Origin: Deltaproteobacteria bacterium
GTDB taxonomy: Bacteria; Desulfobacterota; Binatia; UBA9968
Reading direction: 5' to 3'
Length of the DNA: 64,000 nucleotides
NCBI GenBank assembly: GCA_016874755.1
Contig: VGTH01000006.1
Span: 1 to 64,000 of the forward strand
The notes beneath the pieces are model-generated. The model was not told the DNA's origin. It ran no database searches and saw nothing but the letters and a program-made list of their open reading frames with translations. The position numbers were made by a program, and so were the translations under genes. Every line of letters begins with the position of its first letter. Position 1 is the first letter of the stretch. This document shows positions 40,146 to 58,850 of this stretch, piece after piece.

Positions 40146-40237
40146 GGAACTCTCCTAGTTAAGGGTTCAGCGCCTAGCGTCTGGGGTTTGGCGTTTTCGG
40201 ATTCCGTTAACGCTAGACCCTAGACGACAAACGCTTA

Positions 40238-40488: not shown

Positions 40489-40592
40489 TGCAGCGTCGCT
40501 AGTTCCATGAGGTGCCTCCGCTCTGCACTCCCATTCTTATTATGAATAAACCGAACTCTTCAAGGTTATCGACCAACCGCAATTGCATCTTC

Positions 40593-40681
40593 GTAGGGGC
40601 GGGTCTCAGACCCGCCCGCAGGCGAGGTTGTGGGAACCCCCACCCATGCCCCGCCTGGGCAGGTTTCAAACCTGCCCCTAC
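40593..40681. repeat. GTAGGGGC-type REP pair, copy A1
   Basis: GTAGGGGCGGGTCTCAGACC and CCGCC form one half; GGGCAGGTTTCAAACCTGCC and CCTAC the other. Each half is itself a small palindrome and the two ends are inverted, so the unit makes two hairpins and a long stem. It is the first of about ten copies between here and 58.9 kb. Confidence 0.7.
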
Positions 40682-40697
40682 AAATTTCGGATGCTAA

Positions 40698-41816
40698 TCA
40701 CACGGCACCGAACAATTTCACCGGGTTATCATACAGAATCTTCCGTTTCTGCTCTTCGGTGATGTCGCTTCGCGCTACCAGCTCCTGCGCGGCGTTTTCA
40801 CGCCCCTCGCCATGCGGATAGTCCGATGAGAACAGCAGTTGATCTTCACCTAACATCGCAATCTCTTCTTTCATCAATGGATCTTCCATTTCGCCGCAGA
40901 TGAAGAAGCGGCCTGACTTCAAATATTCTTTCATCGTCCGCTTGGGCATTTTGGCTTCGAGCACCGGCGGCTGGATCTCTCGGTCGCGCTCGATGTAGTG
41001 ATCGATGCGCCCGACCTGATAGAACAGCCACTCGGCGCCGAACTCCATAAACGCGATGCGCATGTCGGAATAGCGATCGAGAAAACCATGGCCGAGCAGC
41101 GCGACAAAGGCCATCTGCGCCGGCAGTGCCATGCTCAGCGCGTGGGCGTCGAGAAAAGTCTCGACGCAGGGATCGAAAGCCGGAAAGCTCGCCGCCATGT
41201 GCACGCACAGCGGCAGGTTGTAGCGCGCAAACTCATCCCAGAAGTCGTTGAACTCGTCATCGCACAGCATCTTATCGTAGGCGGTGCCAAAGACGACGGC
41301 GGCGGAGGCACCGAGGCGCGACATTTCTTCCAAAGCTGCGATCGATTCACGCGGATGGCGCAACGGAATCAAACCAGCCCACTTGAGCCGTTTTGAATAG
41401 GGTTTGGTTTGCCTCGCGATGAAGCGATTAAAAGCACGAAACAACGCTGCTTCGAAGCGCGCATCGGCGGTCCAGCGGGCGTAGAGCGTCGATGGAAAAA
41501 GAAACTGCACATCGATGCCAAGCTGATCGAGATCGCGCAGGCGCGCCTCGGGATCGACGACAGTGAGCGAACCGCGACTGGGTCCTTCGACCACCCAGCG
41601 TGGCGCAGTCGCCGGCTGTAAACCTGGACCGAGCGCGTGCGGCTCCATGCGCCCGTCCGTAAGCCATCCCGCTGTAAATTTCGCCAGCTCGCCGCCGTCA
41701 TGAATCAACGCCGGCCGTGGCCGCCGCGCTGCGAACTCTTTCGGCAAGTCCGCCCACATCTCCGGCGCCACGTTCACATGGGCGTCGGCGTCGTAAATTT
41801 TGTAACCGTTGATCAT
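40698..41816 (-). CDS. COG2159 amidohydrolase
   Basis: 372 residues from the ATG at 41816, which is preceded by AGGAGG. Motifs: YKIYDADAHVNVAPEMW (Asp-x-His), LPLCVHMAASFPAFDP, and LLFSSDYPHGEGREN. Glu/Asp-rich helices near the end match ACMSD-related hydrolases. It is divergent from a further amidohydrolase at 42132. Of the window's copies it is one of the more distant ones, with LVARSDITEEQKRKILYDNP at the C-terminus. Confidence 0.82.
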   Translation of the reverse strand: MINGYKIYDADAHVNVAPEMWADLPKEFAARRPRPALIHDGGELAKFTAGWLTDGRMEPHALGPGLQPATAPRWVVEGPSRGSLTVVDPEARLRDLDQLGIDVQFLFPSTLYARWTADARFEAALFRAFNRFIARQTKPYSKRLKWAGLIPLRHPRESIAALEEMSRLGASAAVVFGTAYDKMLCDDEFNDFWDEFARYNLPLCVHMAASFPAFDPCVETFLDAHALSMALPAQMAFVALLGHGFLDRYSDMRIAFMEFGAEWLFYQVGRIDHYIERDREIQPPVLEAKMPKRTMKEYLKSGRFFICGEMEDPLMKEEIAMLGEDQLLFSSDYPHGEGRENAAQELVARSDITEEQKRKILYDNPVKLFGAV

Positions 41817-41924
41817 GGTTTGCCTCCTGGCCAGTCGTTCTGCGCTCTTAAACCACGGTGGCGAAACGGCTGTCAATCGGGAATCGTGGTTGGTGAATCG
41901 TGAATCGGAGAAGGTGTCCTCATC

Positions 41925-42055
41925 CGAGTAACCCCCTTTTTGGAAAAGAGGGGTAAGGGGGGCAGAGAAGCTCGTGACTTTTCCACATCGGTGGAAATAC
42001 TTGAACTACGAAAAATCCCTCCTAACCTCCTTTGCGGAAGGGAGGAACCGGAACA
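41925..42055. repeat. CCCCTC/GAGGGG-type repeat in the amidohydrolase divergon
   Basis: AACCCCCTTTTTGGAAAAGA followed by GGGGTAAGGGGG, and CCCTCCTAACCTCCTTTGCG followed by GAAGGGAGG, are two small palindromes. A related CCCCTCTCTGGAAAAGAGGG lies at 54064-54083. They fill the 315-bp gap between divergent amidohydrolase genes, where promoters would be expected. Confidence 0.45.
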
Positions 42056-42131
42056 ACGCATTGACTCCCGTCGCGCCGCGATGTTAAGCCAAGACAAATC
42101 ATAGCCAGCGCGCAAACTCGGAGGATTTCTC

Positions 42132-43175
42132 ATGCTAGACGGAGTCACAGTCATCGATGCCGACGGTCACGTTTTAGAGACCGACGCCGAGATGGAGCAG
42201 TATTTCGACGGCGATTACACCGGTCACCGCCGCACCGGAACATTTTCAATCTTCCCTTCTCTCGACGGCTGGCCGCGCGGCTTTGTCCGTGGCTTGAACA
42301 AAGTCACCAAAGTCGACGTGAATAGTTGGATTCAATTCATCGAAGGCTCGAAGATCTCCGCCGCGGTGCTCTACCCCACCGCCGCCCTCTCGGCTGGGTT
42401 GATTCAGGACCACGACTGGGCCTGTGTCGTCGCGCGCATGTACAACAACTGGCTCTGCGATCGCTATTGCAAGGTCGACAAACGTTTGAAAGGCGTGGCG
42501 CTGCTGCCGGTGCAAAATCCCCAAGAAGCAGCTAACGAGCTGCGCCGCTGCGTGAATGACTACGGCATGGTCGCTGGCCTGCTACCAGCCGTGACCAACC
42601 TGAGCAAAGGCTTCGGCCACCAGGATTTCCACCCGATCTATAAAGTAGCCCAGGAATTGAACGTCCCGCTCACCGTTCACGGCGCCGTGAGCGCCAACTT
42701 GGGTTTCGATTTTCTCCAGACCATGTCGATGATCCATACGTTGGAGCACCCCATCGCGCAGATGATCCAGTTGACCAGCATGGTCTTGGACGGTGTCTTC
42801 GACCTGTTTCCCAAACTGCGGGTGGGTTATCTCGAAGCCGGCGCCGGCTGGATTCCCTATATGATGGACCGCCTGGACGAAAAAGATCACATCGACCGCA
42901 AACGCAAACACTTCCCCCTGAGCGTTAAACCGAGCGAATATTTCAAGCGCGGCAACATTTACGTCACCTGCGAAACCGACGAGAAGACATTGGACGTGGT
43001 CGCCCGCGAGATGGGTGAAGACTACATGATGTACCCCACCGACTTCCCGCACGAGCGCGAAGCCGGCGTCTTCGCCAAAGACATCCCGGAGTTCTGGGAG
43101 CGGACGGATTTATCGGAACGAGTGAAACGAAAAGTGTTTAGCGAAAATGCCAAACGGTTTTATAATATGGCTTGA
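42132..43175 (+). CDS. COG2159 amidohydrolase
   Basis: 347 residues. VIDADGHVLETDAEMEQYF starts the barrel (Asp-x-His), VPLTVHGAVSANLGFDF supplies a central His, and MMYPTDFPHEREAGV the final Asp. GGAGG at 42120-42124 supports the start. A conserved FPKLRVGYLEAGAGWIPYMM block precedes the last part, as in the other paralogs. It stands alone on the plus strand between repeats; the nearest SBP (43330) is convergent. The substrate is unknown. Confidence 0.83.
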   Translation: MLDGVTVIDADGHVLETDAEMEQYFDGDYTGHRRTGTFSIFPSLDGWPRGFVRGLNKVTKVDVNSWIQFIEGSKISAAVLYPTAALSAGLIQDHDWACVVARMYNNWLCDRYCKVDKRLKGVALLPVQNPQEAANELRRCVNDYGMVAGLLPAVTNLSKGFGHQDFHPIYKVAQELNVPLTVHGAVSANLGFDFLQTMSMIHTLEHPIAQMIQLTSMVLDGVFDLFPKLRVGYLEAGAGWIPYMMDRLDEKDHIDRKRKHFPLSVKPSEYFKRGNIYVTCETDEKTLDVVAREMGEDYMMYPTDFPHEREAGVFAKDIPEFWERTDLSERVKRKVFSENAKRFYNMA

Positions 43176-43180
43176 TTCTT

Positions 43181-43276
43181 TTCACCACGAAGACGCGCAG
43201 AGCACGAAGGAAAGAACCAGAAGCTGAAAAATAATCTTCTCCGAACTTCGTGTCGTTCGTGCCTCCTCGTGGTGAG
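43181..43276. repeat. CACCACGAAG-type palindromic repeat
   Basis: TTCACCACGAAGACGCGCAG and GTGCCTCCTCGTGGTGAG are opposed arms, with TCCGAACTTCGTGTCGTTCG before the right arm. It lies between the convergent amidohydrolase and SBP genes and could also serve as a terminator. Confidence 0.6.
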
Positions 43277-43329
43277 TCAGACTTATCCGAACTTTGTGTT
43301 CTCTGCGTTCTTTGCGGTTAAATCTCTCC

Positions 43330-44313
43330 TCAGAACTTCTTCGTCACGCCGCTCTCTTCCAACCGGCGCGATAGCGTCCCATCGATAAACTGTTCCGGCT
43401 TGGCATTCGCCGCTTTCGCATTGGTCGCCGCGAGTACTTCCAAGATGGGTCTTATCCCACTCGCCGTCGGTCGCAGCGTCGGACTATAGACATCTTTGTT
43501 GTCGGCGTAGGTATTTTCCAGGATCGTCCGGTCCTTGATCTTGGTGTACTTCCCCATGACGCGCATGGCGCGTTCTCTGTCGGTGCGAAAAATATGCACC
43601 CCTTCGGCGACGGCGTTGAACGCCCGCTGCGCACGGTCCGCGGAGTCGCGAATGAAAGTCTTGCGCGTCGCCAGCACAAACGACGGATACTCGACGCCGG
43701 CGCCATTCCAGATTCTCTTAAAACCCATCGCCTCGCCGCGGTAGGTAAACGGCGGCGACAACATCGCTCCTTGCACCTTGCCGGCTTGCATCGCTGCCAG
43801 CGATTCGGGATAGCCTCCCGAGCCGATCAGCGGAATATCTTTAATCGGTTCCAGCTTTGCCTGGGCGAAGGCAACTTTGGCCATGTAAGCCGTGCTCGAC
43901 GCCAACCGAGTCACCGCCACGGTCTTGCCTTTGAGATCTTCAACTTTATTGATGCCCGAATTGGCACCGACCCAGAGACTGATCGGCGTCGTGTTGGAAA
44001 TGAACCCAGCCAACGTGAGATCGGCACCCGCCAAGATGCCGGCAATGATCGGATCGGCGCCGCCGTAGATGAAATCGATTTCACCCGCGATCAGCGCGCT
44101 CACCGCGACGGCGGAGCCGCCGATGTAAACCAGATCGGCGTCGGTGCCGTGCTTCTGATACAGCTTCTCATCGGTCGCAATCCACACCGGCGTGAAGATG
44201 CCGCTGACAGAGCTATAGGAAGCGCGGATCTTGTTTTGAGCGTGAGCCGCAGAAACGACGACAAGAACACAAGCAACGACAGAAAAGACTTTCAGAAGTT
44301 TTTTTAACGGCAT
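43330..44313 (-). CDS. NitT/TauT-type ABC substrate-binding protein
   Basis: 327 residues from the ATG at 44313 (MPLKKLLKVFSVVACVLVVV), with a clear signal peptide ending SAAHAQ. A longer upstream reading would start inside a GTAGGGGC repeat and is rejected. SGIFTPVWIATDEKLYQKHG and ALIAGEIDFIYGGADPIIAG are NMT1-like. A basic, Ala-rich C-terminal half follows, ending LEESGVTKKF. It is divergent from the amidohydrolase at 44603, 289 bp away across a repeat. No transporter partner is adjacent. Confidence 0.83.
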   Translation of the reverse strand: MPLKKLLKVFSVVACVLVVVSAAHAQNKIRASYSSVSGIFTPVWIATDEKLYQKHGTDADLVYIGGSAVAVSALIAGEIDFIYGGADPIIAGILAGADLTLAGFISNTTPISLWVGANSGINKVEDLKGKTVAVTRLASSTAYMAKVAFAQAKLEPIKDIPLIGSGGYPESLAAMQAGKVQGAMLSPPFTYRGEAMGFKRIWNGAGVEYPSFVLATRKTFIRDSADRAQRAFNAVAEGVHIFRTDRERAMRVMGKYTKIKDRTILENTYADNKDVYSPTLRPTASGIRPILEVLAATNAKAANAKPEQFIDGTLSRRLEESGVTKKF

Positions 44314-44401
44314 TTTCACCTCGAAATAATTTTGTCGGAGATCATAAGGAGCAGTCGTCCATCTGTCAATTGAGCTTTGTGATCGCAACCGCATTTTGCA
44401 T

Positions 44402-44501
44402 GTAGGGGCAGGTTTCAAACCTGCCCGCGCGGCGCGGGGTGGGGTGCCTCCGAACACGCCACCCTAACCACTCCCGGGGCGGGTTTCAAACCCGCCCCTA
44501 C
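44402..44501. repeat. GTAGGGGC-type REP pair, copy A2
   Basis: GTAGGGGCAGGTTTCAAACC opens and GGGGCGGGTTTCAAACCCGC then CCCTAC closes. It lies in the divergent promoter region between SBP 43330 and amidohydrolase 44603. Confidence 0.7.
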
Positions 44502-44602
44502 GTCGGATTCAACCGAGGCGGTACTGTTTGGTCCCAAGATTTCTTCAGCTTGACGTTGCCCGCCAATCCTCGCTACATATCACCTGAACGCGCGGAGGAC
44601 TT

Positions 44603-45718
44603 ATGCCTGGAATCATCGACGCCGACACCCACATCGCCGAATCGGAGAGCATGTGGAAACACTTCGATCCGAAAATGCATCACCGCCGACCCGTGATGGT
44701 CTCGGCGCCCGATGACACGCTCTACCGCGACTTCAACGTGCTTTGGCTCATCGACGGTAACATATACCCGAAAGCCTCCGGCAAAGGCGGCTTTCGCATC
44801 ATCACGCCGACCGCATCCAAGCGCGAAATCAATCGCACCGACATTGCGCTCGGCTGCCGCGAAATCACCGATGTGCCCGCGCGCCTTGCCGACATGGACA
44901 CGGCAGGCGTGCAAACCCAGGTGATCTATCCGACGTTATTTTTAATTGACGTCACCGACGACAAAGATCTTCAGATCGCGCTGTGCGGCGCTTACAACAA
45001 ATTTCTCGGCGAGGTCTACCGCAAGTCGAACAATCGCTTGCGCTGGGTCACGGTCCTGCCATATCTATCGGTCGATGAATCCATCGCGCAAATGCGCGAG
45101 GCGAAACAAAACGGCGCCGTCGGCCTTTTCTTTAGCGGCATCATGGGATCGCTCACGTTGAACAATCCGCATTTCACACCGATCTATGCCGAAGCGGAAA
45201 AGCTTGGCCTGCCGATTTGCGTCCACACCGGCCAGAGCTGCCGCCACCTGCTGGAGTTTTTCGATCTAGAATTGAACGGCACCTTTGCGACATCCCATTG
45301 CCCGCCAATTATTGGTTTTCGCGATTTGGTCGCGGGCGAAATCCCGGAAAAATTTCCCGATTTGAAGTTTGGTTTCTTGGAAGTGTCGGCAAGCTGGGTG
45401 CCGTTTCTCTACCATCACTTGAAACGCTCAGCGCGCCCACGGCCGAGCTTTCCCAAAGCGCGCTGGAAATTTAGCTCATGCGAAGAGCTGTTTCGTGAAT
45501 ATCGCATCTACGTCGCCTGCGAAGCCGACGAAGACATCCCCTATTTGGCGGGCTACATCGGCGAAGACAACTTGCTGATCGGTTCCGACTACGGCCACAA
45601 CGACCCCGCGGAAGAGAAGGCGTTGGTTCAAACCATGCGCTCGCGGGAAGATTTGTCGCCGGCGTTGGTCGAAAAAATCATGTGCGAAAATCCCAAACGG
45701 TTTTACGGCTTGGCATGA
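44603..45718 (+). CDS. COG2159 amidohydrolase
   Basis: 371 residues. IIDADTHIAESESMWKHF (Asp-x-His) opens; LPICVHTGQSCRHLLEFFD gives the central His; LLIGSDYGHNDPAEEK the final Asp; the end is CENPKRFYGLA. GGAGG precedes the ATG. It is followed by a Bug-type SBP 134 bp downstream across a REP copy, again pairing hydrolase with binding protein. It is related to the tandem pair at 37.7-40.1 kb. Confidence 0.84.
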   Translation: MPGIIDADTHIAESESMWKHFDPKMHHRRPVMVSAPDDTLYRDFNVLWLIDGNIYPKASGKGGFRIITPTASKREINRTDIALGCREITDVPARLADMDTAGVQTQVIYPTLFLIDVTDDKDLQIALCGAYNKFLGEVYRKSNNRLRWVTVLPYLSVDESIAQMREAKQNGAVGLFFSGIMGSLTLNNPHFTPIYAEAEKLGLPICVHTGQSCRHLLEFFDLELNGTFATSHCPPIIGFRDLVAGEIPEKFPDLKFGFLEVSASWVPFLYHHLKRSARPRPSFPKARWKFSSCEELFREYRIYVACEADEDIPYLAGYIGEDNLLIGSDYGHNDPAEEKALVQTMRSREDLSPALVEKIMCENPKRFYGLA

Positions 45719-45741
45719 ATCGGCGAATTTAACGCATCGAT

Positions 45742-45832
45742 GTAGGGGTGGGTCTAAGACCCGCCCGCGTGCGGTGGCGGCGGAGATGCAGCCCCACACC
45801 ACCGCCCGCGCAGGTTTGCAACCTGCCCGTAC
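45742..45832. repeat. GTAGGGGC-type REP pair, copy A3
   Basis: GTAGGGGTGGGTCTAAGACC and CGCAGGTTTGCAACCTGCCC plus GTAC are its two halves. It lies between the amidohydrolase and the Bug-type SBP; an apparent longer N-terminus of that SBP is just translated repeat. Confidence 0.65.
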
Positions 45833-45852
45833 ATTTGGAAGGCGGAGAGCCT

Positions 45853-46875
45853 ATGATCGTTACAATAGTCATCGCTGTGATCCTGCTTCTGCATTCGAAC
45901 CTCTGGGCGCAGGCGCCATTCTACCAAGGCAAAACCATCACGGTGATCAGCTCCTCCAGCACGGGCAGCGCCTACGACATTTACGCTCGGCTTGTGGCCC
46001 AGTTCATGGGCAAACATATCCCCGGCAACCCCGGCTTCGTCGTCCAGAATATGCCCGGCGCGGGTTCACTGATCGGCACCAACTATGTTTACGGCCTTGC
46101 CAAGAGCGACGGCACGGCGATCGGCGCGCTGCAGCCGTCGATGTATTTCAATCAGCTGCTCAAACAGCCCGAGGTCAAGTACGACTGGGCCAAGTTCAAT
46201 TGGCTCGGCAGCTCGGACAAGTCGGAGAGTTTGCTCTACATGCGCGCCGACTTGCCGTACAAGACGCTGGCCGACGTGCGTAAAGCCAAGGAGCCGCCCA
46301 AATGCGGCTCCACCGGCCCCGGCACCTCGGGCACCTACTTCCCCAAACTGCTGGAAGAGCTTCTCGGCACGAAATTTACCGTCATCTCCGGCTACAAAGG
46401 CGGTGCGGAAATCGATCTCGCCGTCGAGCGCGGCGAGCTGCATTGCCGCGCCTTTACGATTCAGGCGTATCATTCGAGAGAGCCTTACCACACCTGGCGC
46501 AAGAAAAATTTCGCGCGGATTTTGATGCAAACCGGCCAGAGCCGCGACCCGCGTCTCGCCGACACGCCGACGATTTACGAGTTGATGAACGAATATAAAA
46601 CTCCCGAGGCGCAGCGCCGCCTGCTGCCGTTGATCCTAGCCGCCAACGACTTCGGCCGCCCCATTGTTGCGCCCCCTGCGGTCGCCCCGGCCACAGTGAA
46701 AATCCTGCGCGACGCACTGATCAAAACCTTGGGTGATGCTGAACTGCTGGTGGAAGCAAAACGAAAAGACCTCGACATCACACCCACTCCGGGTGAAGAG
46801 CTGCAAGCATTGGCGAAGCAGGTCGTAGTACAGCCTGCAGACGTCGTGGCGCGGGTAAAGACGTTGATGGAATAA
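45853..46875 (+). CDS. Bug/TctC-like tripartite transporter binding protein
   Basis: 340 residues from the ATG at 45853 (MIVTIVIAVILLLHSNLWAQ), a short signal peptide; upstream in-frame sequence is repeat-derived. FYQGKTITVISSSSTGSAYD, IPGNPGFVVQNMPGAGSLIG and KFTVISGYKGGAEIDLAVER mark the Bug clamp. It binds carboxylates or similar ligands in the periplasm. No TctAB membrane genes are present, which is a constant theme in this window. Its 3' end is followed by a REP copy and the REP-transposase remnant. Confidence 0.8.
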   Translation: MIVTIVIAVILLLHSNLWAQAPFYQGKTITVISSSSTGSAYDIYARLVAQFMGKHIPGNPGFVVQNMPGAGSLIGTNYVYGLAKSDGTAIGALQPSMYFNQLLKQPEVKYDWAKFNWLGSSDKSESLLYMRADLPYKTLADVRKAKEPPKCGSTGPGTSGTYFPKLLEELLGTKFTVISGYKGGAEIDLAVERGELHCRAFTIQAYHSREPYHTWRKKNFARILMQTGQSRDPRLADTPTIYELMNEYKTPEAQRRLLPLILAANDFGRPIVAPPAVAPATVKILRDALIKTLGDAELLVEAKRKDLDITPTPGEELQALAKQVVVQPADVVARVKTLME

Positions 46876-46901
46876 CGCACGCGAATCACGTGACGCATTT
46901 C

Positions 46902-47000
46902 GTAGGGGCGAGTCTCAGACCCGCCCGCGGCGCGGCGGGGACTGCATGAAGAACGCCCACCCCCAAACCCCACCCGGGCAGATCTCAGACCTGCCCCTAC
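46902..47000. repeat. GTAGGGGC-type REP pair, copy A4
   Basis: GTAGGGGCGAGTCTCAGACC and GGGCAGATCTCAGACCTGCC then CCTAC are the halves. It directly abuts and forms the 3' break of the REP-transposase remnant at 47001-47309. Confidence 0.7.
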
Positions 47001-47309
47001 ATCGGATTCTCGTTGAATAGCGCCTGGCAGGCTCACAACTCCGTGAACGTGGTTCGGCATAACTACGAATGCATCGCTTTCCACACCGGGATAATGTTTT
47101 GGTAATTCTTCCCATGTTTTTTGAATCACACGGCCGGCATCGTTCAAACTGATCTTTCCATCCGAAACCTCGCCAAACAGACAGGCGCGATCTTGGGCGA
47201 CGATCGTCACAAAATAGGCACCGGCCTCAGCGTAGTCGTAACCACGCAGCCGTATCGACTTTCGTTGCGGTCTGCTTCGCTTGTCGTCCATCGCGGAATC
47301 ACTAATCAC
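47001..47309 (-). pseudogene. REP-associated tyrosine transposase (RAYT), 3'-truncated
   Basis: From a start at 47309 or 47291 (MDDKRSRPQRKSIRLRGYDY) the frame reads YFVTIVAQDRACLFGEV, ELPKHYPGVESDAFVVMPNH and VHGVV. The N-H-V-H block holds HUH-type histidines of RAYT/TnpA-REP proteins, which cut and join REP hairpins. After about 103 residues the frame enters repeat A4 (reading DVGAGLRSA), then non-homologous sequence antisense to the SBP. The C-terminal half with the catalytic Tyr is missing. The surrounding GTAGGGGC repeats are the likely substrates of a complete RAYT elsewhere in the genome. Confidence 0.7.
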
Positions 47310-47345
47310 AAACAGGCGTCACTGCAACCCATCGCCGATTCCGAC

Positions 47346-47432
47346 GTAGGGGCGGGTGTCAGACCCGCCCGCGGCGGCGGTGGCGAAAACCCCACACCAC
47401 CATCCCCGGGCAGGTTTGAAACCTGCCCCTAC
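47346..47432. repeat. GTAGGGGC-type REP pair, copy A5
   Basis: GTAGGGGCGGGTGTCAGACC and GGGCAGGTTTGAAACCTGCC then CCTAC. It lies just upstream of the RAYT remnant start, so the gene scrap is bracketed by A4 and A5. Confidence 0.7.
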
Positions 47433-47471
47433 GTTTCAGGAGGTCTACACGTTCAATCTGTGCGTCTTGAT

Positions 47472-47526
47472 GTAGGGGCAGTTGCCCGTCCTCTACCCCC
47501 GGGAAGGCACGGGGGCCTACCCCTAC
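47472..47526. repeat. GTAGGGGC-type repeat variant, copy A6
   Basis: GTAGGGGCAGTTGCCCGTCC and ACGGGGGCCTACCCCTAC; a diverged unit with a different centre. Confidence 0.5.
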
Positions 47527-47611
47527 AAATTCGCGATGCTTGCCTACGCTGATTGCTTGACAACCAAACCCGTGCGGCAATATTTTTGAACCGTCCATTC
47601 AGGAGGTTTCC

Positions 47612-48007
47612 ATGTTTGACGTAAAAAGCATCCGCACTTTCGCCATGAGTGTTAAAGATCTTAATCGATCGGTGGAGTTCTACACGAAAATCCTCGGCGG
47701 CAAGATCACCAAGACCGTTGAACCAACCGAAGAGCAGATCAAGAACGGCCAAGTGAAAGAAATCGACGTGCGCCTGGGCAATTTCGAAGTGCATATATTC
47801 GACGGCTCCAAAGGCCCGCGCGCACCCGACCCGCATCACACGTTGAATATCCCATGGCAGGAAAAAGACAACGCGCTAAAAATGGTGATGGACGCCGGCG
47901 CCATCGTCGAGAAAGTCCGGCCGCACCGCGGCACGGATAATTATTCGATCAATGTCTTCGACCCCGACGGCAATCGCTGGGAGTTGTCCTTCGCCAAAGA
48001 GAATTAG
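47612..48007 (+). CDS. VOC-superfamily (glyoxalase/bleomycin resistance-like) protein
   Basis: 131 residues. IRTFAMSVKDLNRSVEFYTK opens the first beta-alpha-beta-beta-beta half, and INVFDPDGNRWELSF closes the second. Acidic and His residues in LGNFEVHIFDGS and the late Glu are candidate metal ligands. AGGAGGT precedes the ATG. VOC proteins include glyoxalase I, ring-cleavage dioxygenases, epimerases and antibiotic-binding proteins; this one is single-domain, so it would dimerise. The role is undetermined, perhaps in aromatic catabolism given its neighbours. Confidence 0.78.
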   Translation: MFDVKSIRTFAMSVKDLNRSVEFYTKILGGKITKTVEPTEEQIKNGQVKEIDVRLGNFEVHIFDGSKGPRAPDPHHTLNIPWQEKDNALKMVMDAGAIVEKVRPHRGTDNYSINVFDPDGNRWELSFAKEN

Positions 48008-48052
48008 GAATATCTCGCGCAGAGAACGCAGAGGCCGCAAAGGTTCCGGAAT

Positions 48053-48149
48053 GTAGGAGCGGGTCTCAGACCCGCCCACGGGCGGCGGCGGAGTGCGGGG
48101 GGATCAACCGCCCCATCCCGGCCCGGGCAGGTTTTAAACCTGCGCCTAC
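48053..48149. repeat. GTAGGGGC-type REP pair, copy A7
   Basis: GTAGGAGCGGGTCTCAGACC and GGGCAGGTTTTAAACCTGCG then CCTAC. A CGCAGAGAACGCAGAGGCCG unit of the other repeat type precedes it. Confidence 0.65.
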
Positions 48150-48193
48150 ATCGGAACCGAGGCGGCGTTCAAACAGTTGGCCTCGTTGATAAG

Positions 48194-49459: not shown

Positions 49460-49698
49460 GACCCGCCCCTACATCTGAATTATTTTTTGCGCTTTTTGCG
49501 TCTTTTGCGGCCATTCTCCGATCCGAATCGGATCTTACTTTACGTTCCTTGCGCACTTTGCGGTTAAATCCTTCCGAGTCCCGGGCGCGATGAATCGCGC
49601 CCCTACATCCGGATTATTTTGCGCCTTCTGCGCTTTTTGCGGTTAATTTCCGAATCCGAGCGCGCAACCCGCGCCTTTGTGCCCTTTGTGGTTAATTC
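49449..49698. repeat. Cluster of half repeats (GTAGGGGC and TTTGCGG types)
   Basis: Half units GCGGGTCTAAGACCCGCCCC (49452 on), GGCGCGATGAATCGCGCCCC (49584 on), and repeated TTTTTGCG-CTTTTGCGG and CCTTTGTGGTTAATTCC motifs fill the whole gap between convergent M28 and acyl-CoA dehydrogenase genes. No gene is seen. Confidence 0.55.
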
Positions 49699-50853: not shown

Positions 50854-50949
50854 CTTGAACCTCCATTTTGGATTTTAGCTTTTGGATTTTCGATTATCGG
50901 ATCAGACGCTCAGATCACCCGACTCCGATTCCGACAATCCAAAATTGTC

Positions 50950-51765: not shown

Positions 51766-51882
51766 GGCACTTCCTCCTAAAATGTTTGTAAACTCCTCAA
51801 GGTCCTACTCTAGTCGCGCGCAACGTGCAAGAAGAATGGCGACCAACCGGTCAACCCTAAAAAACCTGGCGATTGTCGCTGC

Positions 51883-52926
51883 TCAGCGCTTTACGACCAC
51901 GTCGCGCAGCAACTTTTTCCAACGCTCTTCGTTGCGCTCGTACTGCTCAAAGGTGCCGCCCTTCTCGGGGTACCAGCGCTTGAAGCCGTAATCCTTCGTC
52001 GGCGTAGCGAAGCGGAAGCGCTCTTCCATGATCTTTTGCCCCTCGGGGCTTAGCAGGAAATCCGCCAGCAACACGGCACCATTGGGATTGGCCGCCACCA
52101 GCGGCAGTGCTACGCCACCCGCGTTGGTCGGATTCAAGTCCAGCGGCACCCACTCAGTCGGCGCGCCTTTCGGCTTCGCAGCCAGCACATGATTGCGAAA
52201 AATCGAGATCGACATCGGCATTTCGCCTGCCGCCATGAGCTCGTGGATCGCGCCGCCCGAAATCATGTGCATCTTCATCTCGATCAATCTTAACTGTTTA
52301 GCAAACTCTTCACCCTTCGCTCGGATCACCGCACCGATAAACCGCACCCCGGTGGAGTCACCGCTGACGCCGATCTTGCCCTTGTTCTCGGGCTTGACCA
52401 GATCGGCAAAACTCTTAGGGACCTCGTTGGCTTTGATCAGATTGCGGTTGTAGCCCAGGCTAATGATCGACTCGCGATCGGTGGTCCAGAGCACCCGGTC
52501 CTTGTCCGCCTCTTCCTTGGAGTCAGCTGGGTAATTGACCAGGTATGGCGAAAAATAAGGCGTCAGCAGCTTGCTATCGCGCAAGACCATCAGGGTCGGC
52601 GGCGTAGTCTCGTAAATATCCGCGAGATTTTTCTTGGCCTGCACCTCGGAGAGAATCCGGCGCGTCAAATCGTTGCCGCTGGCGCGGTACGTCTCCAGCT
52701 TGACGCCTGGATACTTCGCTTCAAAGACATTGGCGATGTCCCGATGCGCAGTCAGACTGGTGTACCAAACGAGCCTGCCTTCTTTCTTTGCGCCCGCGAA
52801 GAGCATCTGCTCGCGGTCGGCGCCGCGGTAATTGGCCAATTCAGCGAGAGACTTGCTTTGCGCATTGAGCCACGACGGCGCCCCCAATAACGCAACCAAA
52901 CCGAGAATCCCCGCGTACGTTCGCAT
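51883..52926 (-). CDS. Extracellular solute-binding protein, Fe3+/PBP2-like, paralog 1
   Basis: 347 residues from the ATG at 52926, preceded by AAGGAGATC. The signal peptide is ILGLVALLGAPSWLNAQ. LANYRGADREQMLFAGAKKE, VFEAKYPGVKLETYRASGND and KNKGKIGVSGDSTGV-like PENKGKIGVSGDSTGV mark an iron-type binding fold. It is strongly similar throughout to 52969-54006, so the two are a tandem duplication. No permease is adjacent. The ligand could be a metal-organic complex or an organic acid. Confidence 0.8.
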   Translation of the reverse strand: MRTYAGILGLVALLGAPSWLNAQSKSLAELANYRGADREQMLFAGAKKEGRLVWYTSLTAHRDIANVFEAKYPGVKLETYRASGNDLTRRILSEVQAKKNLADIYETTPPTLMVLRDSKLLTPYFSPYLVNYPADSKEEADKDRVLWTTDRESIISLGYNRNLIKANEVPKSFADLVKPENKGKIGVSGDSTGVRFIGAVIRAKGEEFAKQLRLIEMKMHMISGGAIHELMAAGEMPMSISIFRNHVLAAKPKGAPTEWVPLDLNPTNAGGVALPLVAANPNGAVLLADFLLSPEGQKIMEERFRFATPTKDYGFKRWYPEKGGTFEQYERNEERWKKLLRDVVVKR

Positions 52927-52968
52927 TCCGATCTCCTTACTCCTCACTATTCACTCCTTACTACTTCA

Positions 52969-54006
52969 TTACTTCCTGGTAATTTCCTGCAGCAGCTTCT
53001 TCCAGCGCTCCTCCGCCTTCTCATACTGCTCCAACGTCTTGCCCTGTTCCGGGTACCAGCGCTTAAAACCGTAATTCTTGGTCGGCACGGCAAAGCGGAA
53101 TTTTTCCTCGTAAATCTTTTGCCCTTCAGGACTCAACAAAAAGTCGATGAACAACAAAGCCGCGTGCGGGCTATTACTCGCCGCGGGCAGGCCAATGCTG
53201 CCAGCGTTGGCCGGGCTCAAATCCAGCGGCACCCACTCGGTCGGTGCGCCTTTGACTTTGCCGGCCAACACGTGATTGCGAAAGATCGAAATCGACATAT
53301 GCATCTCGCCGGCGGCCATCAGCTCATGCATCGCCCCGCCGGAGATCATATGCGCTTTAATATCCAAACTCCGGAGATTTCTGACGAACTCTTCGCCTTT
53401 CGCCGCGACCATCGCACCGATAAAGCGCACGCCGGTGGTATCGCCGCTGACACCGATTTTGCCCTTGTTTTCCGGCTTGGCGAAGTCAGCAAAAGTCTTT
53501 GGCACCTCTCCGGCTTTCATCATGTTGCGGTTGTAACCAAGGCCGACGATCGACTCGCGATCGGTGGTCCAGAACACACGCGTCTTATCCGCTTCCTCTT
53601 TGGAGTCGTCGGGATAATTGCCGAGGTGCGGCGAATAATACGGCGCAAGCAGCTTGTGCTCGCGCATGATCATCAAGGTCGTCGGCGTGGTCTCAAGCAG
53701 GTCGGCAATGTTGCGCTTCGATTGCGCCTCCGAGAGCATCCGCCGCGTCAGATCGTTGGGTGCGGCGCGATAGGTTTCGACCTTGACACCGGAATATTTC
53801 GCTTCGAAGACGTTGGCGATATCGCGATGCGCCGTGAGACTCGTGTACCAGGTGAGCTTGCCTTCCTTCTTCGCGCCAGTCAGGAGCATCTGCTCGCGAT
53901 CGGCACCGCGGTAGTTAGCGAGATCGGCAACGGAACGGGTTTGGGCGGAGGCGGAGGAGGACACGCAGAAAAACAAACAGGCTGCAAGTAACGAACGACT
54001 TCTCAT
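52969..54006 (-). CDS. Extracellular solute-binding protein, Fe3+/PBP2-like, paralog 2
   Basis: 345 residues from the ATG at 54006 (MRSRSLLAACLFFCVSSSAS), with a signal peptide. It shares LANYRGADREQML, VFEAKYSGVKVETYRA and FRNHVLAGKVKGAPTEWVPL with paralog 1 almost word for word. It lies upstream of paralog 1 on the same strand, with only 42 bp between the genes, so they are co-transcribed. An earlier in-frame start is unlikely as it lacks a signal peptide. Confidence 0.8.
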   Translation of the reverse strand: MRSRSLLAACLFFCVSSSASAQTRSVADLANYRGADREQMLLTGAKKEGKLTWYTSLTAHRDIANVFEAKYSGVKVETYRAAPNDLTRRMLSEAQSKRNIADLLETTPTTLMIMREHKLLAPYYSPHLGNYPDDSKEEADKTRVFWTTDRESIVGLGYNRNMMKAGEVPKTFADFAKPENKGKIGVSGDTTGVRFIGAMVAAKGEEFVRNLRSLDIKAHMISGGAMHELMAAGEMHMSISIFRNHVLAGKVKGAPTEWVPLDLSPANAGSIGLPAASNSPHAALLFIDFLLSPEGQKIYEEKFRFAVPTKNYGFKRWYPEQGKTLEQYEKAEERWKKLLQEITRK

Positions 54007-54172
54007 TCTTTCTACTCCAAGAATTTTGCCCCCTCGGGGAAGCATGCGGGTTGACTCCGAGTTCCCCTCTCTGGAAAAGAGGGGTTAGGGGAGATTTGCG
54101 AGGCGCGGTCGGAGAGACGCATTATTTTTTGACAGCCTCCCCCGAGGCGGGGGAAGAAGTAAAAACCGCTCA

Positions 54173-56545
54173 TTATTCCAAGACCCCGTCCGCTTTATGC
54201 GCGGCGATCGTCGCGGCGTCATAGCCTACCACATCGCGCAGCACTGCTTCCGTGTCTTTGCCAAGCACGGGGAACTCCCAACGGCGCGTCAACTTCGCAT
54301 TGGTAAAGTGCAGCGGAAAACTCGGCAGCACGACTTTGCCCAAGCGCGCGTTTTCCACTTCGACGATGAAGCCGCGCTCTTTTAACTGCGGATCGTTCAC
54401 TAAGTCTTCGCCCGTCTGCGCCACGCCGCAAGGAACGCCGGCTTTTTGCAGCTGATCGCGGATTGCAAACGTATCGCGAGTTCTTGTCCAGGCGGAGATC
54501 GTTTCATCCAGCCCTGCGCGGTTTTCTAAACGCGCGCTGTTGGTGGCAAACTTTGCATTACCCGCGATCCCTAGAATATTCGCCAGCGCGTTCCACTGCT
54601 GCTCGGTCTCCGCGGCGATGGCGCACCAGCGATCTTCCCCTTTGCAGGGGTAGACATTATGCGGCGCCACCGCGCGCGAGATATTGCCGATGGGCTCAGG
54701 ATTTCTCCCGCTCGATGCGGCTTCCATCAAGTTGGCGCCGATCATGAACGCGGTCGCTTCGGATTGACCGAGATCGACGAACGCGCCCTGCTTCTGCCGG
54801 TCGCGATGGAGCACCCCGGAAATGATAATGATCGCGCACAGCACGCCGGTGACATAGTCGGGATAAACCAACTGCGCCCCCACCGGCGGATTGGTCACGC
54901 CTGGATGGTTCCACATATAGGTCAAGCCGGTGAAGGCGGTGATGTTCACACCGACCGTAGAATAGTGCCGCTTCGGCCCCGTCGTGCCGAGCCCGGGCAT
55001 GCGCAAGTTGACGATGTCCGGCTTCACCGCGCAGAGCTGGCGGTAGCCCAAGCCGATGCGGTCGACCACATCGACGCTGTAGTTGTCGAGCACCGCGTCG
55101 GCCTTTGCAACCAGATCGTGCAGCACGCCCTGTCCCTTGGGATGTTTGAGATTGACCGTGAAGGAGCGTTTGTTGCGGTTAAATTCCAAAAAGCGCGGCG
55201 ACAGGTTGGGATCTTCGCCGGTGCCGAAAAAACGAAACGGGTCCATGCCGCCTTTGCTCGACTCTATTTTCATGACGTCGGCGCCGAGCTCAGCCAAAAT
55301 CGTCGTGCCATAAGGTCCCGCAAGCACGTGGTCAAAACTGACGATACGCATGCCGTCGAGCGGGCCGTTGCCGCTAGTCGCTGTCGACTTCGGCGACTGA
55401 GGCGCCGCTCTCTTTCCGCCGATATCTTTCCAACCATCGAGCAGCGGCACGCTGCCCACCTCCGGACGGCTGCCGTCGATCATGAACGGCATCGCCGGCT
55501 GCTTGGCGCTGCCGAAACCGGCATGCTCCACTGCCGTCATAAATCCACGGCCCTGCACATGCTCGTCGTTGGCGAAACCCATCGGCGTATTCACCGGCAC
55601 GCAAGGAATGCCTTTTCCCTGGAGCAGGTTAGTAATCTCCGCCATGGTGAACTTGCTGAGAAACTTCTCCACTTCGGGATTGAGCTCATCGGCATGCTCA
55701 CGCCGGTAGACGTTGTTCAACCAGGCGGCATCGTCGAACACCGGCGGGTGATCCTTCCACACGTTCAAGAACAGCTTCCAGTGCTGCCGCGTAACGTAGA
55801 GATAGACGAAGCCATCTTTGCACGGAAAGATTTTCGCCGGCGCCACCGAGCCATGCTGGCTGCCGGCGCGCTTGAGAATCTGTTTCTCGTTGGCCCACAA
55901 GCGAACGATATGCTCATGGGTTCCCAACGTTTCCTGCATCGAAGTATCGATGTGATCGCCCTGGCCGGTTCTCTCGCGGCGATAGAGCGCCGCGAGCACG
56001 CCAGCCGTCGCGAACAGACTGGCGAAATAGTAAGCCTGCGACTCAGGGGCCCTGCATGGCGCCGTGGCCGGATCGCCGCAAACATAGAGAATGCCGCTCT
56101 CAGCCAAACCGACCAGATCGTTGTAGGCAAAATCTTTCTTCGGCCCGGTCTGACCGAAGCAAGTGATAGAAGCCATCACGACGCCCGGATTCACCATTGC
56201 CAAATCTTTGTAGCCCAAACCCTTTGCCGCCAACTCACCCGGCTTGAAGCTCTCGATAACAACATCAGCGGATTTCACCAGCTCACGGAACGCCGCGCGC
56301 CCCGCGTCGCTTTCCAGGTCGACGACCTTGCTGTGCTTGCCGGCATTCAAATGCGCAAACGTCGCGCTCAACTCCGCGCCGTTTGACGATTTGATAAACG
56401 GCGCGAGTTTGCGCACCGGATCGCCGCCAGGCGGCTCGATCTTAACCACTTCCATACCCAAGTCAGCCAAAATGCGCCCGCACAACTGGCCGGAGAGACC
56501 GGTCAAATCCAACGCTCGATACCCTTTGAGAAATGCTCCACCCAT
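54173..56545 (-). CDS. Tandem CaiB/BaiF family III CoA-transferase fusion
   Basis: 790 residues, twice the usual length. Domain 1 (about 1-390) has FLKGYRALDLTGLSGQLCGR, VKIEPPGGDPVRKLAPF and GQGDHIDTSMQETLG. Domain 2 (about 400-790) starts GPLDGMRIVSFDHVLAGPYG and has DVMKIESSKGGMDPFRFFG and KQGAFVDLGQSEATAF. Family III enzymes move CoA between carboxylates through an Asp aspartyl-CoA intermediate and work as interlocked dimers; a fused protein could form an intramolecular dimer. Asp residues lie at the catalytic-type positions of both halves. It probably activates an acid for the nearby acyl-CoA dehydrogenase and crotonases. Confidence 0.83.
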   Translation of the reverse strand: MGGAFLKGYRALDLTGLSGQLCGRILADLGMEVVKIEPPGGDPVRKLAPFIKSSNGAELSATFAHLNAGKHSKVVDLESDAGRAAFRELVKSADVVIESFKPGELAAKGLGYKDLAMVNPGVVMASITCFGQTGPKKDFAYNDLVGLAESGILYVCGDPATAPCRAPESQAYYFASLFATAGVLAALYRRERTGQGDHIDTSMQETLGTHEHIVRLWANEKQILKRAGSQHGSVAPAKIFPCKDGFVYLYVTRQHWKLFLNVWKDHPPVFDDAAWLNNVYRREHADELNPEVEKFLSKFTMAEITNLLQGKGIPCVPVNTPMGFANDEHVQGRGFMTAVEHAGFGSAKQPAMPFMIDGSRPEVGSVPLLDGWKDIGGKRAAPQSPKSTATSGNGPLDGMRIVSFDHVLAGPYGTTILAELGADVMKIESSKGGMDPFRFFGTGEDPNLSPRFLEFNRNKRSFTVNLKHPKGQGVLHDLVAKADAVLDNYSVDVVDRIGLGYRQLCAVKPDIVNLRMPGLGTTGPKRHYSTVGVNITAFTGLTYMWNHPGVTNPPVGAQLVYPDYVTGVLCAIIIISGVLHRDRQKQGAFVDLGQSEATAFMIGANLMEAASSGRNPEPIGNISRAVAPHNVYPCKGEDRWCAIAAETEQQWNALANILGIAGNAKFATNSARLENRAGLDETISAWTRTRDTFAIRDQLQKAGVPCGVAQTGEDLVNDPQLKERGFIVEVENARLGKVVLPSFPLHFTNAKLTRRWEFPVLGKDTEAVLRDVVGYDAATIAAHKADGVLE

Positions 56546-56589
56546 TTATCTCTTACCTTTGGTGAAATAGTTTAGTGCAAGATTATTAT

Positions 56590-56684
56590 TCACCACGAAG
56601 ACACGAAGATCACGAAGGTAAGAAAAGAAATGAAATGAACAAAATCTTTTTCCGAACTTCGTGTCCTTCGTGCCTTCGTGGTGA
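56590..56684. repeat. CACCACGAAG-type palindromic repeat
   Basis: CACCACGAAGACACGAAGAT and TTCGTGCCTTCGTGGTGAG are opposed arms with CCGAACTTCGTGTCCTTCG inside. It is one of the cleanest copies of the family, between CoA-transferase and nitronate monooxygenase genes. Confidence 0.65.
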
Positions 56685-56694
56685 GGCGGGCTCC

Positions 56695-57825
56695 TCACCC
56701 GCCGACGTAGCGCGTTCTCATCTGATTCAGGATTTCCGACGCCTGCGTCACCATGCGGTCGACGATCTCTGCCGCCGGCACGTTGTTTTTCTCCTCGCTC
56801 AACATGCCCGACACCTGCCCGCCGGGCACGTGCAGCAGATCGACGCGGTCCGCCGCTTCGGCGGCGCGCCGCACTTCGTCCATGGCGTTGCCCTGGTATG
56901 GAGTCGGCATCGCCGGCAGACCGGAGTCCATCCACTCTTTGATGACCGCGCTCTTGTAATGGCGCGCGTAGTGGCCGCTGGTGTAGGCCGTGCGCACGAA
57001 GTCTTCCGACGTGCCTTTATAGATTTGCTGCTTGTAAACCGGATTGATGCCGCCTTCTCTAGTCACGAGAAACGTCGTGCCGCACCACACACCCACCGCA
57101 CCCAGCGCCAGCGCCGCTGCTACACCGCGGCCATCAGAGATGCCGCCCGCCGCGACTACCGGTTTCGGTTTCACCGCGTCGACGATTTGCGGAATCAGCG
57201 GGAAGTTGCCGATCGTCCCGGTGTGGCCGCCGGCTTCATAGCCTTGCGCGATGATCACATCCGCGCCTTTGCGCGCGTGGCTCAGCGCGTGCTTCACCGC
57301 GCCCGCCAGCGCCATGACTTTGATGCCGCGCTCGTGCGCCAACGGCACGACTTCGGCGGTGTCGCCCAAGCCGATGATGAGAATCGGCACCTTCTCTTCA
57401 AGAATCACTTTCAGCTGCTCGCGCGTCGCCGCCGGAGTTTTGACCCAGCTCTTGCGATCGGGCGGCACCGGCTTCAAGCCAAGTTTCGGAATCATCTCAT
57501 CGTTAAACTTGGCATGTTTGGGATATTTTTCCTGGATCTCCTTGCGTACTTCATCGGGGTCAGGGATTTTGACATCTTCCATTTTAGGCAGCGTGATATC
57601 GACGCCAAACGGCTTGTCCGTCAGCTTGCGCACTTCGCGAATGCGCTCGCGAATCACTTCCGGGCGAATCGAGCTGCCGCCGATGCAGCCCAACCCACCA
57701 GCATTGGAAACCGCCGCCACCAACGCCGGCGGCGTGGTCAATCCCTCTTTGTCCCAACCCATGCCCGCTTGAATGATCGGATATTTAATATTCAACAAAT
57801 CACACAAGGGTGTATGCAAACTCAT
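56695..57825 (-). CDS. Nitronate monooxygenase / 2-nitropropane dioxygenase family
   Basis: 376 residues. CDLLNIKYPIIQAGMGW and ALVAAVSNAGGLGCIGGSSI are the FMN-binding start; VIIAQGYEAGGHTGTIGNF carries the conserved Gly-Gly-His near residue 205; VVAAGGISDGRGVAAALALG binds the phosphate. GGAGTT precedes the ATG. Members oxidise nitroalkanes or act as enoyl reductases and related flavoenzymes; the GGHTG version is the common bacterial NMO type. It is probably co-transcribed with the CoA-transferase downstream. The exact substrate is unknown. Confidence 0.84.
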   Translation of the reverse strand: MSLHTPLCDLLNIKYPIIQAGMGWDKEGLTTPPALVAAVSNAGGLGCIGGSSIRPEVIRERIREVRKLTDKPFGVDITLPKMEDVKIPDPDEVRKEIQEKYPKHAKFNDEMIPKLGLKPVPPDRKSWVKTPAATREQLKVILEEKVPILIIGLGDTAEVVPLAHERGIKVMALAGAVKHALSHARKGADVIIAQGYEAGGHTGTIGNFPLIPQIVDAVKPKPVVAAGGISDGRGVAAALALGAVGVWCGTTFLVTREGGINPVYKQQIYKGTSEDFVRTAYTSGHYARHYKSAVIKEWMDSGLPAMPTPYQGNAMDEVRRAAEAADRVDLLHVPGGQVSGMLSEEKNNVPAAEIVDRMVTQASEILNQMRTRYVGG

Positions 57826-57933
57826 AATTCCAACTCCTTTCGAAGACGGACCCGTAGCTGTGCTCAGGGTGACAGCAAACGAAACGCACCGACCGACAAC
57901 CTTGAACTTTGAACGTTGAACCTTGAACGGAAA

Positions 57934-58755
57934 TTATTTCTTCCGATCCTCCGGCTTCACATAGCCCGTCGTGCCGCCGCCTTTCTGCGAATGCAGATAG
58001 CCTTCGACGTCGCTCAGCGGATTGGTGTAGATGCGCATGCGGTGCGACACCAAATCATCGGTTTGCAGTGCCATGTCGAAAGGCAAATCCTTTTCCATGT
58101 ACGCTGCAATCTTCGCGCTCTCCAGCGTCGCGAAGTTGCGCGAGCCCAACTCTTTCGCCAACTGCTCGACGGTTGGAATCAACTCTTTATCGGGCACGAC
58201 CTCTGAAACCAGACCGACCCGCTCCGCTTGGGCAGCTGTCATATTGCGGCCGGTCAACTGAAGGTAGAAGGCCTTTTTATATGGAATGCCGGTGTGAAAT
58301 AGCGTCGAAGTCGCCACCGCGCCATAGCTGCCGCGGATCACCTCGGGCATGCCGAACATCGCCGACTCACAGGAGATCGCCAAATCATGGGCGTTGAGCA
58401 GCGCAAAGCCGCCGCCCAGGCACCAGCCATTGATCGCCGCAATCGTCACCTGCGGCATGCCGCGCAGCACACGCACGATCTCATAGGTCGAGCCGCCTTC
58501 GTCCCAACGGCGCCGCTTGCCCTTCCAACTCTCGCGCAGATCGTAAAGATCCAGCCCCGAGCTATAGGAATTTCCTTGGCCCGTCGTGACAACGCATTTG
58601 ATTTTTTCATTCTCGCGGATTTCTTTCAGCACCGCGATCATTTCGGCCATCAATAACCGACTCAAAGCGTTCTTTTTCTCTGGCCTATTGAACGTCAGCC
58701 AAGCAACTCCGGTGCTTTCATCAACTTTGGGAATAATCGTCTTCATCTCAACCAT
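57934..58755 (-). CDS. Enoyl-CoA hydratase/isomerase (crotonase)
   Basis: 273 residues from the ATG at 58755, preceded by GGAGGAAAG. An upstream-extended frame is repeat-derived and rejected. WLTFNRPEKKNALSRLLMAE, GQGNSYSSGLDLYDL, INGWCLGGGFALLNAHDLAI and FGMPEVIRGSYGAVAT cover the oxyanion hole and active Glu. It is related to 50950-51765 and likewise of the hydroxycinnamoyl-CoA hydratase/lyase-like branch. It lies upstream of nitronate monooxygenase on the same strand. Confidence 0.82.
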   Translation of the reverse strand: MVEMKTIIPKVDESTGVAWLTFNRPEKKNALSRLLMAEMIAVLKEIRENEKIKCVVTTGQGNSYSSGLDLYDLRESWKGKRRRWDEGGSTYEIVRVLRGMPQVTIAAINGWCLGGGFALLNAHDLAISCESAMFGMPEVIRGSYGAVATSTLFHTGIPYKKAFYLQLTGRNMTAAQAERVGLVSEVVPDKELIPTVEQLAKELGSRNFATLESAKIAAYMEKDLPFDMALQTDDLVSHRMRIYTNPLSDVEGYLHSQKGGGTTGYVKPEDRKK

Positions 58756-58822
58756 AAGCTTTCCTCCATTTTGCGCGCTTCGATCTACGATCACTATCAA
58801 AACTTGCATGCAATCATCAACT

Positions 58823-58850
58823 GTAGGGACAGGTCGCGACCTGTCCCTAC
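58823..58850. repeat. GTAGGGAC palindrome (short GTAGGGGC relative, A10)
   Basis: GTAGGGACAGGTCGCGACCT then GTCCCTAC is a 28-bp perfect palindrome, a short member of the REP family, upstream of the crotonase gene. Confidence 0.65.

Follow-up and report, generated by a model that had tools for sequence, protein, structure and literature searches.

The stretch of DNA analyzed here (the window) comprises positions 1 to 64,000 of contig VGTH01000006.1 in the draft genome GCA_016874755.1 of a Deltaproteobacteria bacterium (G000), and it contains a truncated gene for a REP-associated tyrosine transposase (RAYT) lying among repetitive extragenic palindromes (REPs), several of which are arranged as units of two inverted REPs (REPINs). 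We consider it fairly probable that this locus is a decayed REPtron, i.e., a RAYT gene with adjoining REPs, from a clade in which the gene carries a REP embedded in frame in its own coding sequence, and that the half of the gene with the catalytic tyrosine (Tyr) was lost beyond the embedded REPIN, likeliest by deletion. The embedding itself has been known since 2018, while the link between embedded REP type and enzyme lineage, the conservation of the REP codons and the breaks of genes at the embedded REP are new here. The locus represents a known kind of element with an informative mode of decay.

A RAYT Remnant Ending at an Embedded REPIN

The remnant is located on the minus strand at 47001–47291, counted from an ATG at 47291 with a GTG at 47309 as another possible start, and positions 47291 to 47001 translate as MDDKRSRPQRKSIRLRGYDY...DAFVVMPNHVHG... 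This corresponds to the N-terminal half of a REP Tyr transposase with the histidine-hydrophobic-histidine (HUH) motif, here VMPNHVHG, and it matches the profile NF047646 (REP_Tyr_transpos) with an E-value of 3.5e-7 and 30.2 bits, below the curated cut-off of 80 bits; a Pfam search with the translation gave no match. The Tyr half is missing, and nothing in the surrounding locus (L122) matched a profile of this half. Judged from its sequence, the RAYT of the window is a remnant and not a working member, and a protein without the catalytic Tyr is predicted to be incapable of cutting DNA. The frame of the remnant enters REPIN A4 (46902–47000, plus strand), where A4 reads V-G-A-G-L, and upstream, 54 bp before the ATG of the remnant, lies REPIN A5 (47346–47432, plus strand), which is of the same type as A4, the arrangement of a REPtron. 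A preliminary description of this DNA had proposed a RAYT remnant bracketed by A4 and A5 whose frame runs into A4, and this is borne out by the translation, the NF047646 match and the V-G-A-G-L reading. Describing A4 as a bracketing neighbor is, however, incomplete: A4 has the place and phase of the REP that intact relatives carry inside their open reading frame (ORF) between HUH and Tyr, and the whole Tyr half beyond A4 is gone. Although REPINs are dense here, with six in 7.6 kb, a chance arrival of A4 next to a RAYT gene that had been truncated before is very improbable, since the position and phase of A4 equal those of the embedded REP of intact relatives. An assembly error is scarcely credible: the draft assembly of G000 comprises 101 contigs, repeats break assemblies and some homologues end at contig ends within a REP, but the locus lies inside a 169-kb contig and the same form is found in a one-contig genome (L191). 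According to the accessible text of Quentin et al. (2018; PMC6006769), the REPs of subclass 2.4 lie in frame within the tnpAREP genes, as a rule between HuH and Y, and this subclass includes the sequences of RAYT group 4 (Bertels et al., 2017). Because intact relatives have the REP inserted in frame between HuH and Y, as published, and A4 follows HUH in phase in the remnant, where the HUH side alone is visible, the clade of the window is assigned by resemblance to RAYT group 4 and subclass 2.4.

The Embedded REP in Intact Relatives

Relatives were taken from a scan of a species-genome collection with the 96-residue HUH half, of which the best 80 of 388 were used; 65 of these 80 were intact, as defined by the motif and a closed frame, and L041, L053, L079, and L083, which fall outside the 65 through the strict motif or a nearby contig end, look whole or nearly whole. 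If one mismatch is allowed, the tags GTAGGGGC or GCCCCTAC occur between HUH and the Tyr motif in 61 of the 65 intact genes, with dinucleotide shuffles giving an expectation of 11.7 (L052, L068, L072, and L105 are without tag in this interval), compared with 16/65 before HUH (9.1 expected) and 15/65 after the Tyr motif (4.7 expected). As in the window, GTAGGGGC tags of the HUH-Tyr interval read V-G-A in 66 of 71 cases, and the REP-coded peptides include VGAGFKPAPT, VGAKNFSPL, VGATHASPL, and VGAGPRACP...QPQGVAPT. Our literature search found no paper on REP-coded peptides, and for the string GTAGGGGC it returned, among the matches listed, apparent primers and unrelated work. A second set from the class of the window comprised 32 loci, of which 26 were parsed (all except L178, L181, L185, L186, L187, and L189) and six of these were already in the first set; the tag is present in 19 of the 20 further intact genes (4.7 expected), the exception being L120. 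The embedded REP is wholly or partly repeated in tandem and in frame in L179, L095, and L064, which lengthens the loop; L179, for instance, has five copies of VGATPRGRPDGRDA.

An AlphaFold2 model of the L087 protein, built from a 54-row alignment (mean predicted local distance difference test, pLDDT, 88.9), places the REP-coded residues 95–104 in a loop between a strand (83–90) and a helix (109–128), and its confidence is low at this loop (block pLDDT 65 and 78). The best match of the model in the PDB is 4er8, TnpA_REP bound to a REP hairpin (Foldseek, E 1.7e-7, TM 0.53/0.59), which is also on top by sequence (E 3.8e-6). The REP codons are conserved as DNA: in six REP motifs codon pairs for the same residue are identical in 0.78–0.95, compared with 0.31–0.72 in conserved blocks of the same genes (5–10 genes per group, one control block being without a countable pair). 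Both selection on the nucleic acid and renewal from REP copies would account for this conservation.

The Locus in a Genome of the Same Genus

The gene order around the locus is conserved in G059, a genome of the same genus, with identities of 95% for ECH, 95% for ACAD, 84% for VOC, 71% for a TTT-type protein, 87–92% for three amidohydrolases, and 80–82%, in two pieces, for an NMT1-like protein; the M28 peptidase of the window, which was part of the query, is not among the proteins matched at the G059 locus. The insertion of A4, remnant and A5 is absent at the same place in G059. The gap that holds these elements and a degenerate REPIN at 47472–47526 measures 736 bp in the window, compared with ~153 bp in G059 and ~70 bp in G055, and the gap of REPIN A3 measures 134 bp compared with ~12 bp in G059. 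By reading, the G059 stretch contains scattered one-mismatch tags only, none of them paired. The window also carries four amidohydrolase paralogues (39063–45718), ~22–36% alike in cross-matches to G059, where their order is conserved.

Broken Genes and the Likely History of the Locus

Fragments were gathered from lists of the window's class, in which a first look at up to 22 candidates per genome gave a match at E ≤1e-7 in at least 40 of 148 genomes, and of its family, in which clade members, partial ones included, were matched in 15 of 25 genomes at 1e-5 (G000 among them), and they were searched with separate profiles of the HUH half and the Tyr half. Set apart from the count were genes at contig ends (L193, L204), frameshifted genes (L135, L136, L195, L200, L201, L203), two matches ~20 N-terminal residues short (G145:C46 and G146:C20:82045), and weaker matches to ~positions 70–170, which resemble other RAYTs. 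Fourteen genes of the class are without a half or a large block, and in 10 of them the break lies at the embedded REP. The N-half with the REP is kept in six (the window, L191, L192, L129, L130, L133), including L191, which has a degenerate REPIN and the same form as the window remnant in a genome of 5.18 Mb, while the REP with the C-half is kept in four (L123, L197, L198, L199), of which L123 belongs to the genus of the window and L198 has a different embedded palindrome (GTAGAGACGC...). In the other four the break lies elsewhere or no REP is seen (L194, L196, L172, L202). For 10 of 14 genes P is 0.004 if breaks are uniform over the ORF (loop share 0.33) and 0.09 at even chance. A second broken end lies inside the HUH half in L129, L130, L133, L198, and L199, and L196 has two ends elsewhere. 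In L198 and L199, which can be read to the base, the homology of the HUH half ends within about one codon of the REP foot. Outside the class, L061 has the form of an N-half with REP. In L048 (Nitrospira) ~1.5 kb are inserted within the embedded REP of a RAYT (~2771–4209), with TCTGAACC on both flanks, which would fit an insertion sequence (IS) with an 8-bp target duplication.

An intact relative contains, in series, the HUH half, the in-frame REP coding for a floppy loop, and the Tyr half. We infer that the REPINs and a once active RAYT gene arrived between conserved genes where G059 has none, and that the complete gene with its embedded REPIN then lost everything beyond the REPIN. The likeliest event would be a deletion for which the embedded REP supplied one end point, mediated by REP-REP recombination or slippage, or by cutting through the enzyme itself. 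Palindromes promote slippage. As stated in the accessible text of PMC8266576, REP substrates are cut in single-stranded form by the TnpA_REP of E. coli, for which the GTAG motif is crucial, and self-cutting would therefore be possible; the evidence is compatible with self-cutting and with slippage at the embedded REP alike. That A5, the remnant and A4 moved in as a unit, as a cassette with REPIN ends, is improbable. Such a unit would agree with the two REPINs of one type at its flanks, with the frequency of a tag within 200 bp upstream of intact relatives (31/60 versus 12.6 expected from mononucleotide shuffles), and with the absence of the stretch from G059, but upstream of the N-half remnants L129 and L130 a few hundred bases are free of tags, L133 has a single upstream tag ~110 bases before the fragment, and C-half remnants such as L123 and L197 also exist.

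Several points weigh against a decayed REPtron truncated at its embedded REP. The comparison with G059 does not separate a gain in the window from a loss in G059, and the exact empty site is not readable base by base in G059, where the intergenic sequence is too diverged. Downstream flanking tags, which REP-REP deletion needs, are mildly enriched (23/64 versus 15.0 expected from mononucleotide shuffles). Since the linker beyond the REP is not conserved, break positions there are blurred to tens of bases; the N side of L198 and L199 is the one exception. Counted by ends, the embedded REP accounts for 10 of 20 broken ends (P 0.087, loop share 0.33), and the concentration of breaks at the embedded REP is therefore suggestive. 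This count, as well as that of the genes at even chance, would also suit a REP carried as a neutral passenger by a loop that tolerates it, with ordinary deletions and a loop that merely marks the gap between detectable domains. We regard such a passenger as unlikely, if with an appreciable chance of being right: the REP codons are conserved as DNA above the level of conserved blocks and the homology of L198 and L199 ends at the REP foot, while on its side the insertion site is predicted to be peripheral in the accessible text of PMC6006769, the loop has low confidence in the L087 model, and L194 and L196 stop just after HUH with no REP seen.

Embedded REP Type and Enzyme Lineage

With the REP in frame between HUH and Tyr, the gene therefore holds a REP of the type of its own lineage. 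Eight REP types were defined by the hairpin core after the hairpins had been seen and before any tree, and 46 of the 65 intact genes could be assigned to one of them, the other 19 being set aside. Mapped onto a tree of the protein core from which the insert had been removed, the types require 8 changes (minimum 7), compared with a shuffled mean of 30.2 and with none of 200 shuffles as low; bootstrap support on this tree and on the half trees is rough, with many forks open. The type A clade covers Chloroflexota, Bacteroidota, Myxococcota, Thermodesulfobacteriota, and Acidobacteriota according to the sequence records. The REP type changes 8 times on the tree of the Tyr half (C-half) versus 17 times on that of the HUH half (N-half), and 9 times if the C part is trimmed further against REP-coded residues. 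Judged from these trees, the embedded REP type appears to follow mainly the Tyr half.

A role of the embedded REP as a hinge for the exchange of halves was considered but is not established by approximately unbiased (AU) tests and block comparisons. For the N half the AU tests gave p 0.133 (A), 0.266 (F), 0.093 (G), and 0.041 (C), with B already grouped at weak support. Among 62 of the 65 genes (three near-copies dropped), pairwise identities of the whole halves correlate at 0.45, compared with a mean of 0.60 and a lowest value of 0.51 in 60 random column halves, a lower correlation that would fit half exchange; the quarter blocks are without a drop at the REP (N1-N2 0.21, N2-C1 0.36, C1-C2 0.29). 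A prediction of the REPs of a genome from the embedded type was rejected. Copies outside the RAYT locus were considered in 49 genomes and G000, and among the 31 genomes with a RAYT of type A, B or F/G a further copy of the same type is found in 16, versus a shuffled mean of 14.66 (p 0.33; by presence A p 0.27, B p 0.50, F/G p 0.34; by rank A 0.14, B 0.32, F/G 0.034). REPs of other types abound in these genomes: that of L043 (G004) contains 72 double-foot palindromes, those listed being mostly GTAGGGGCGCGGCG(G/C)CGCCGCGCCCCTAC, unlike the REP in its RAYT.

There is a small chance that the embedded REP functions in cis, serving as the site at which the enzyme binds and cuts its own gene. If so, a substrate inside the ORF would tie the enzyme lineage to the REP type across phyla, the gene would be prone to cutting itself in two and to leaving REP-ended halves like that of the window, and the cognate REP of any such enzyme could be read directly from the sequence of its gene.

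REPs and RAYTs in the Window and in the Whole Genome

In the window, GTAGGGGC occurs exactly 12 times, compared with a mean of 0.84 and a maximum of 3 in 100 dinucleotide shuffles. The preliminary description had listed ten copies of a single REP family; REP-like palindromic sequence is present at all 10 places, but these are not one family and comprise at least four REP types: six of the sites are full type A REPINs, a seventh is a lone type A REP, and the remaining three do not belong to type A. A full type A REPIN consists of a GTAG foot and a hairpin followed by an inverted hairpin and a CTAC foot; the consensus of its left arm is GTAGGGGC(A/G)GGTnTnAnACC(T/C)GCCC, after which a spacer and then the mirror image with the CTAC end follow, with some mismatches. 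Besides A4 and A5, these are A1 (40593–40681), A2 (44402–44501), A3 (45742–45832; right foot GTAC), and A6 (48053–48149), all on the plus strand. The six align in register and in one orientation with both hairpins and feet present, and a covariance model made from them scores them with 90.8–105.6 bits on the plus and 48.6–72.9 bits on the minus strand. The remaining sites are the degenerate REPIN at 47472–47526, assigned by eye to another type (GGGCAGGC../..GGTTGCCC-like), the single, one-armed type A REP at 49450–49472 (minus strand), which provides the TAA stop of ORF 48194–49459, a single REP of another type at 49583–49606 (minus strand; GGGCGCGATGAATCGCGCCC with CTAC), and a 28-nt double-foot palindrome of a further type at 58823–58850 (GTAGGGACAGGTCGCGACCTGTCCCTAC). 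The copies do extend apparent N-termini, as had been noted: ORF 45748–46875 begins inside A3, its real start likely being the ATG at 45853 outside of A3, and A2 lengthens ORF 44457–43330 on the minus strand. REPs as terminators were rejected, with 22 terminator-like sites in 40000–50000 versus 12.0 expected, one of which was recognized as a REP (49466–49450).

In G000 (5.56 Mb, 99.55% complete, 3.1% contamination) GTAGGGGCNGGTNTNANACCNGCCC occurs exactly 24 times, and the reversed-pattern control not at all; the REPs thus occur elsewhere in the genome. The 34 type A hairpins are fewer than the more than 100 copies that are usual for REPs according to the accessible text of PMC2817692. By reading, the 18 of 24 exact copies that lie outside the window are all without a second arm within the next 90 bases. 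The covariance model, with 150 of 1167 first-look candidates scored, found besides its six source REPINs at least one further full REPIN (C3:211812–211898). Many single REPs of G000 have a cgcagagtt- or gcgcaaagtt-like sequence ~20 bases upstream. A complete RAYT elsewhere had been suggested to mobilize the copies. By tblastn and profile searches no intact RAYT of the window's clade was found in G000, the remnant being the only member found, next to one further tblastn line (E 0.063, 38% identity over 47 residues), and there is therefore no support for mobilization by an enzyme of this clade resident in G000. The genome has three intact RAYTs from another group, and of the two that were scanned one has a DnaA C-terminal domain and one a helix-turn-helix; all 24 exact type A REPs are either more than 50 kb away from these three genes or on other contigs. 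These RAYTs might accept type A REPs. Because the remnant is without catalytic Tyr and no intact clade enzyme was found in G000, the REPINs of the window are probably orphans, and with no Tyr half of the clade found in this genome their present movement is unlikely, unless an other-group RAYT accepts them.

Further features of the window include a degenerate repeat rich in CGCAAAG/GCGGTTAA and CACGAAG units (43182–43329, 49500–49660, 55166–55190, 56590–56684), which also precedes several single REPs of G000, and tandem copies of a substrate-binding protein gene (51883–52947 and 52969–54045), 1083 bases apart and 71–79% alike in three blocks. Rfam at gathering thresholds gave one match in the window, far from the locus, to a group II intron domain (RF00029, 4087–4237, minus strand, 45.6 bits, gathering score 40).

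Comparison With Known Systems

The spread of REPs and their recognition by RAYTs are still open questions, and embedded REPs matching the lineage of the Tyr half over several phyla offer ready-made enzyme-substrate pairs for tests; breaks at the embedded REP, if upheld in a larger set, would be a simple reporter of an enzyme acting on its own gene. With IS200/IS605 elements (IS608, ISDra2) the clade shares the HUH-Tyr fold family, with Foldseek matches to 2xm3, 2vjv and others, whereas the structure closest to the L087 model is the TnpA_REP 4er8. REPs inside various other genes were described by Di Nocera et al. (2013; PMC3733652); as far as its text is accessible, these intragenic GTAG REPs and the Rickettsia palindromic elements are likewise read in frame inside proteins, but their hosts are many genes, many of them in DNA synthesis or repair, while here the host is the REP transposase and the place is fixed. 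With REPtrons and REPINs, as described in the accessible parts of PMC3116915, PMC3733652, and PMC8266576, the locus shares a RAYT with adjoining REPs, two inverted REPs per unit, and the GTAG foot, and co-evolution with their REPs was reported for two TnpA_REP groups (Corneloup et al., 2021; PMC8266576). It differs from them in that no active cognate enzyme was found in its genome and in that full REPINs were found in one 7.6-kb stretch and, among the candidates scored, one other place. The closest known system is TnpA_REP subclass 2.4 (PMC6006769), with which, by its accessible text, in-frame REPs between HuH and Y, double-foot REPs, and an occurrence in many phyla are shared; this text neither relates REP types to the enzyme tree inside the subclass nor gives a codon test. 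Half genes lie outside the view of that study because partial sequences were discarded there, and a literature search, covering neither supplements nor most subscription papers, found no description of genes halved at the embedded REP. In contrast to the complete genes of subclass 2.4, the copy in the window consists of one half and stops at its embedded REPIN.

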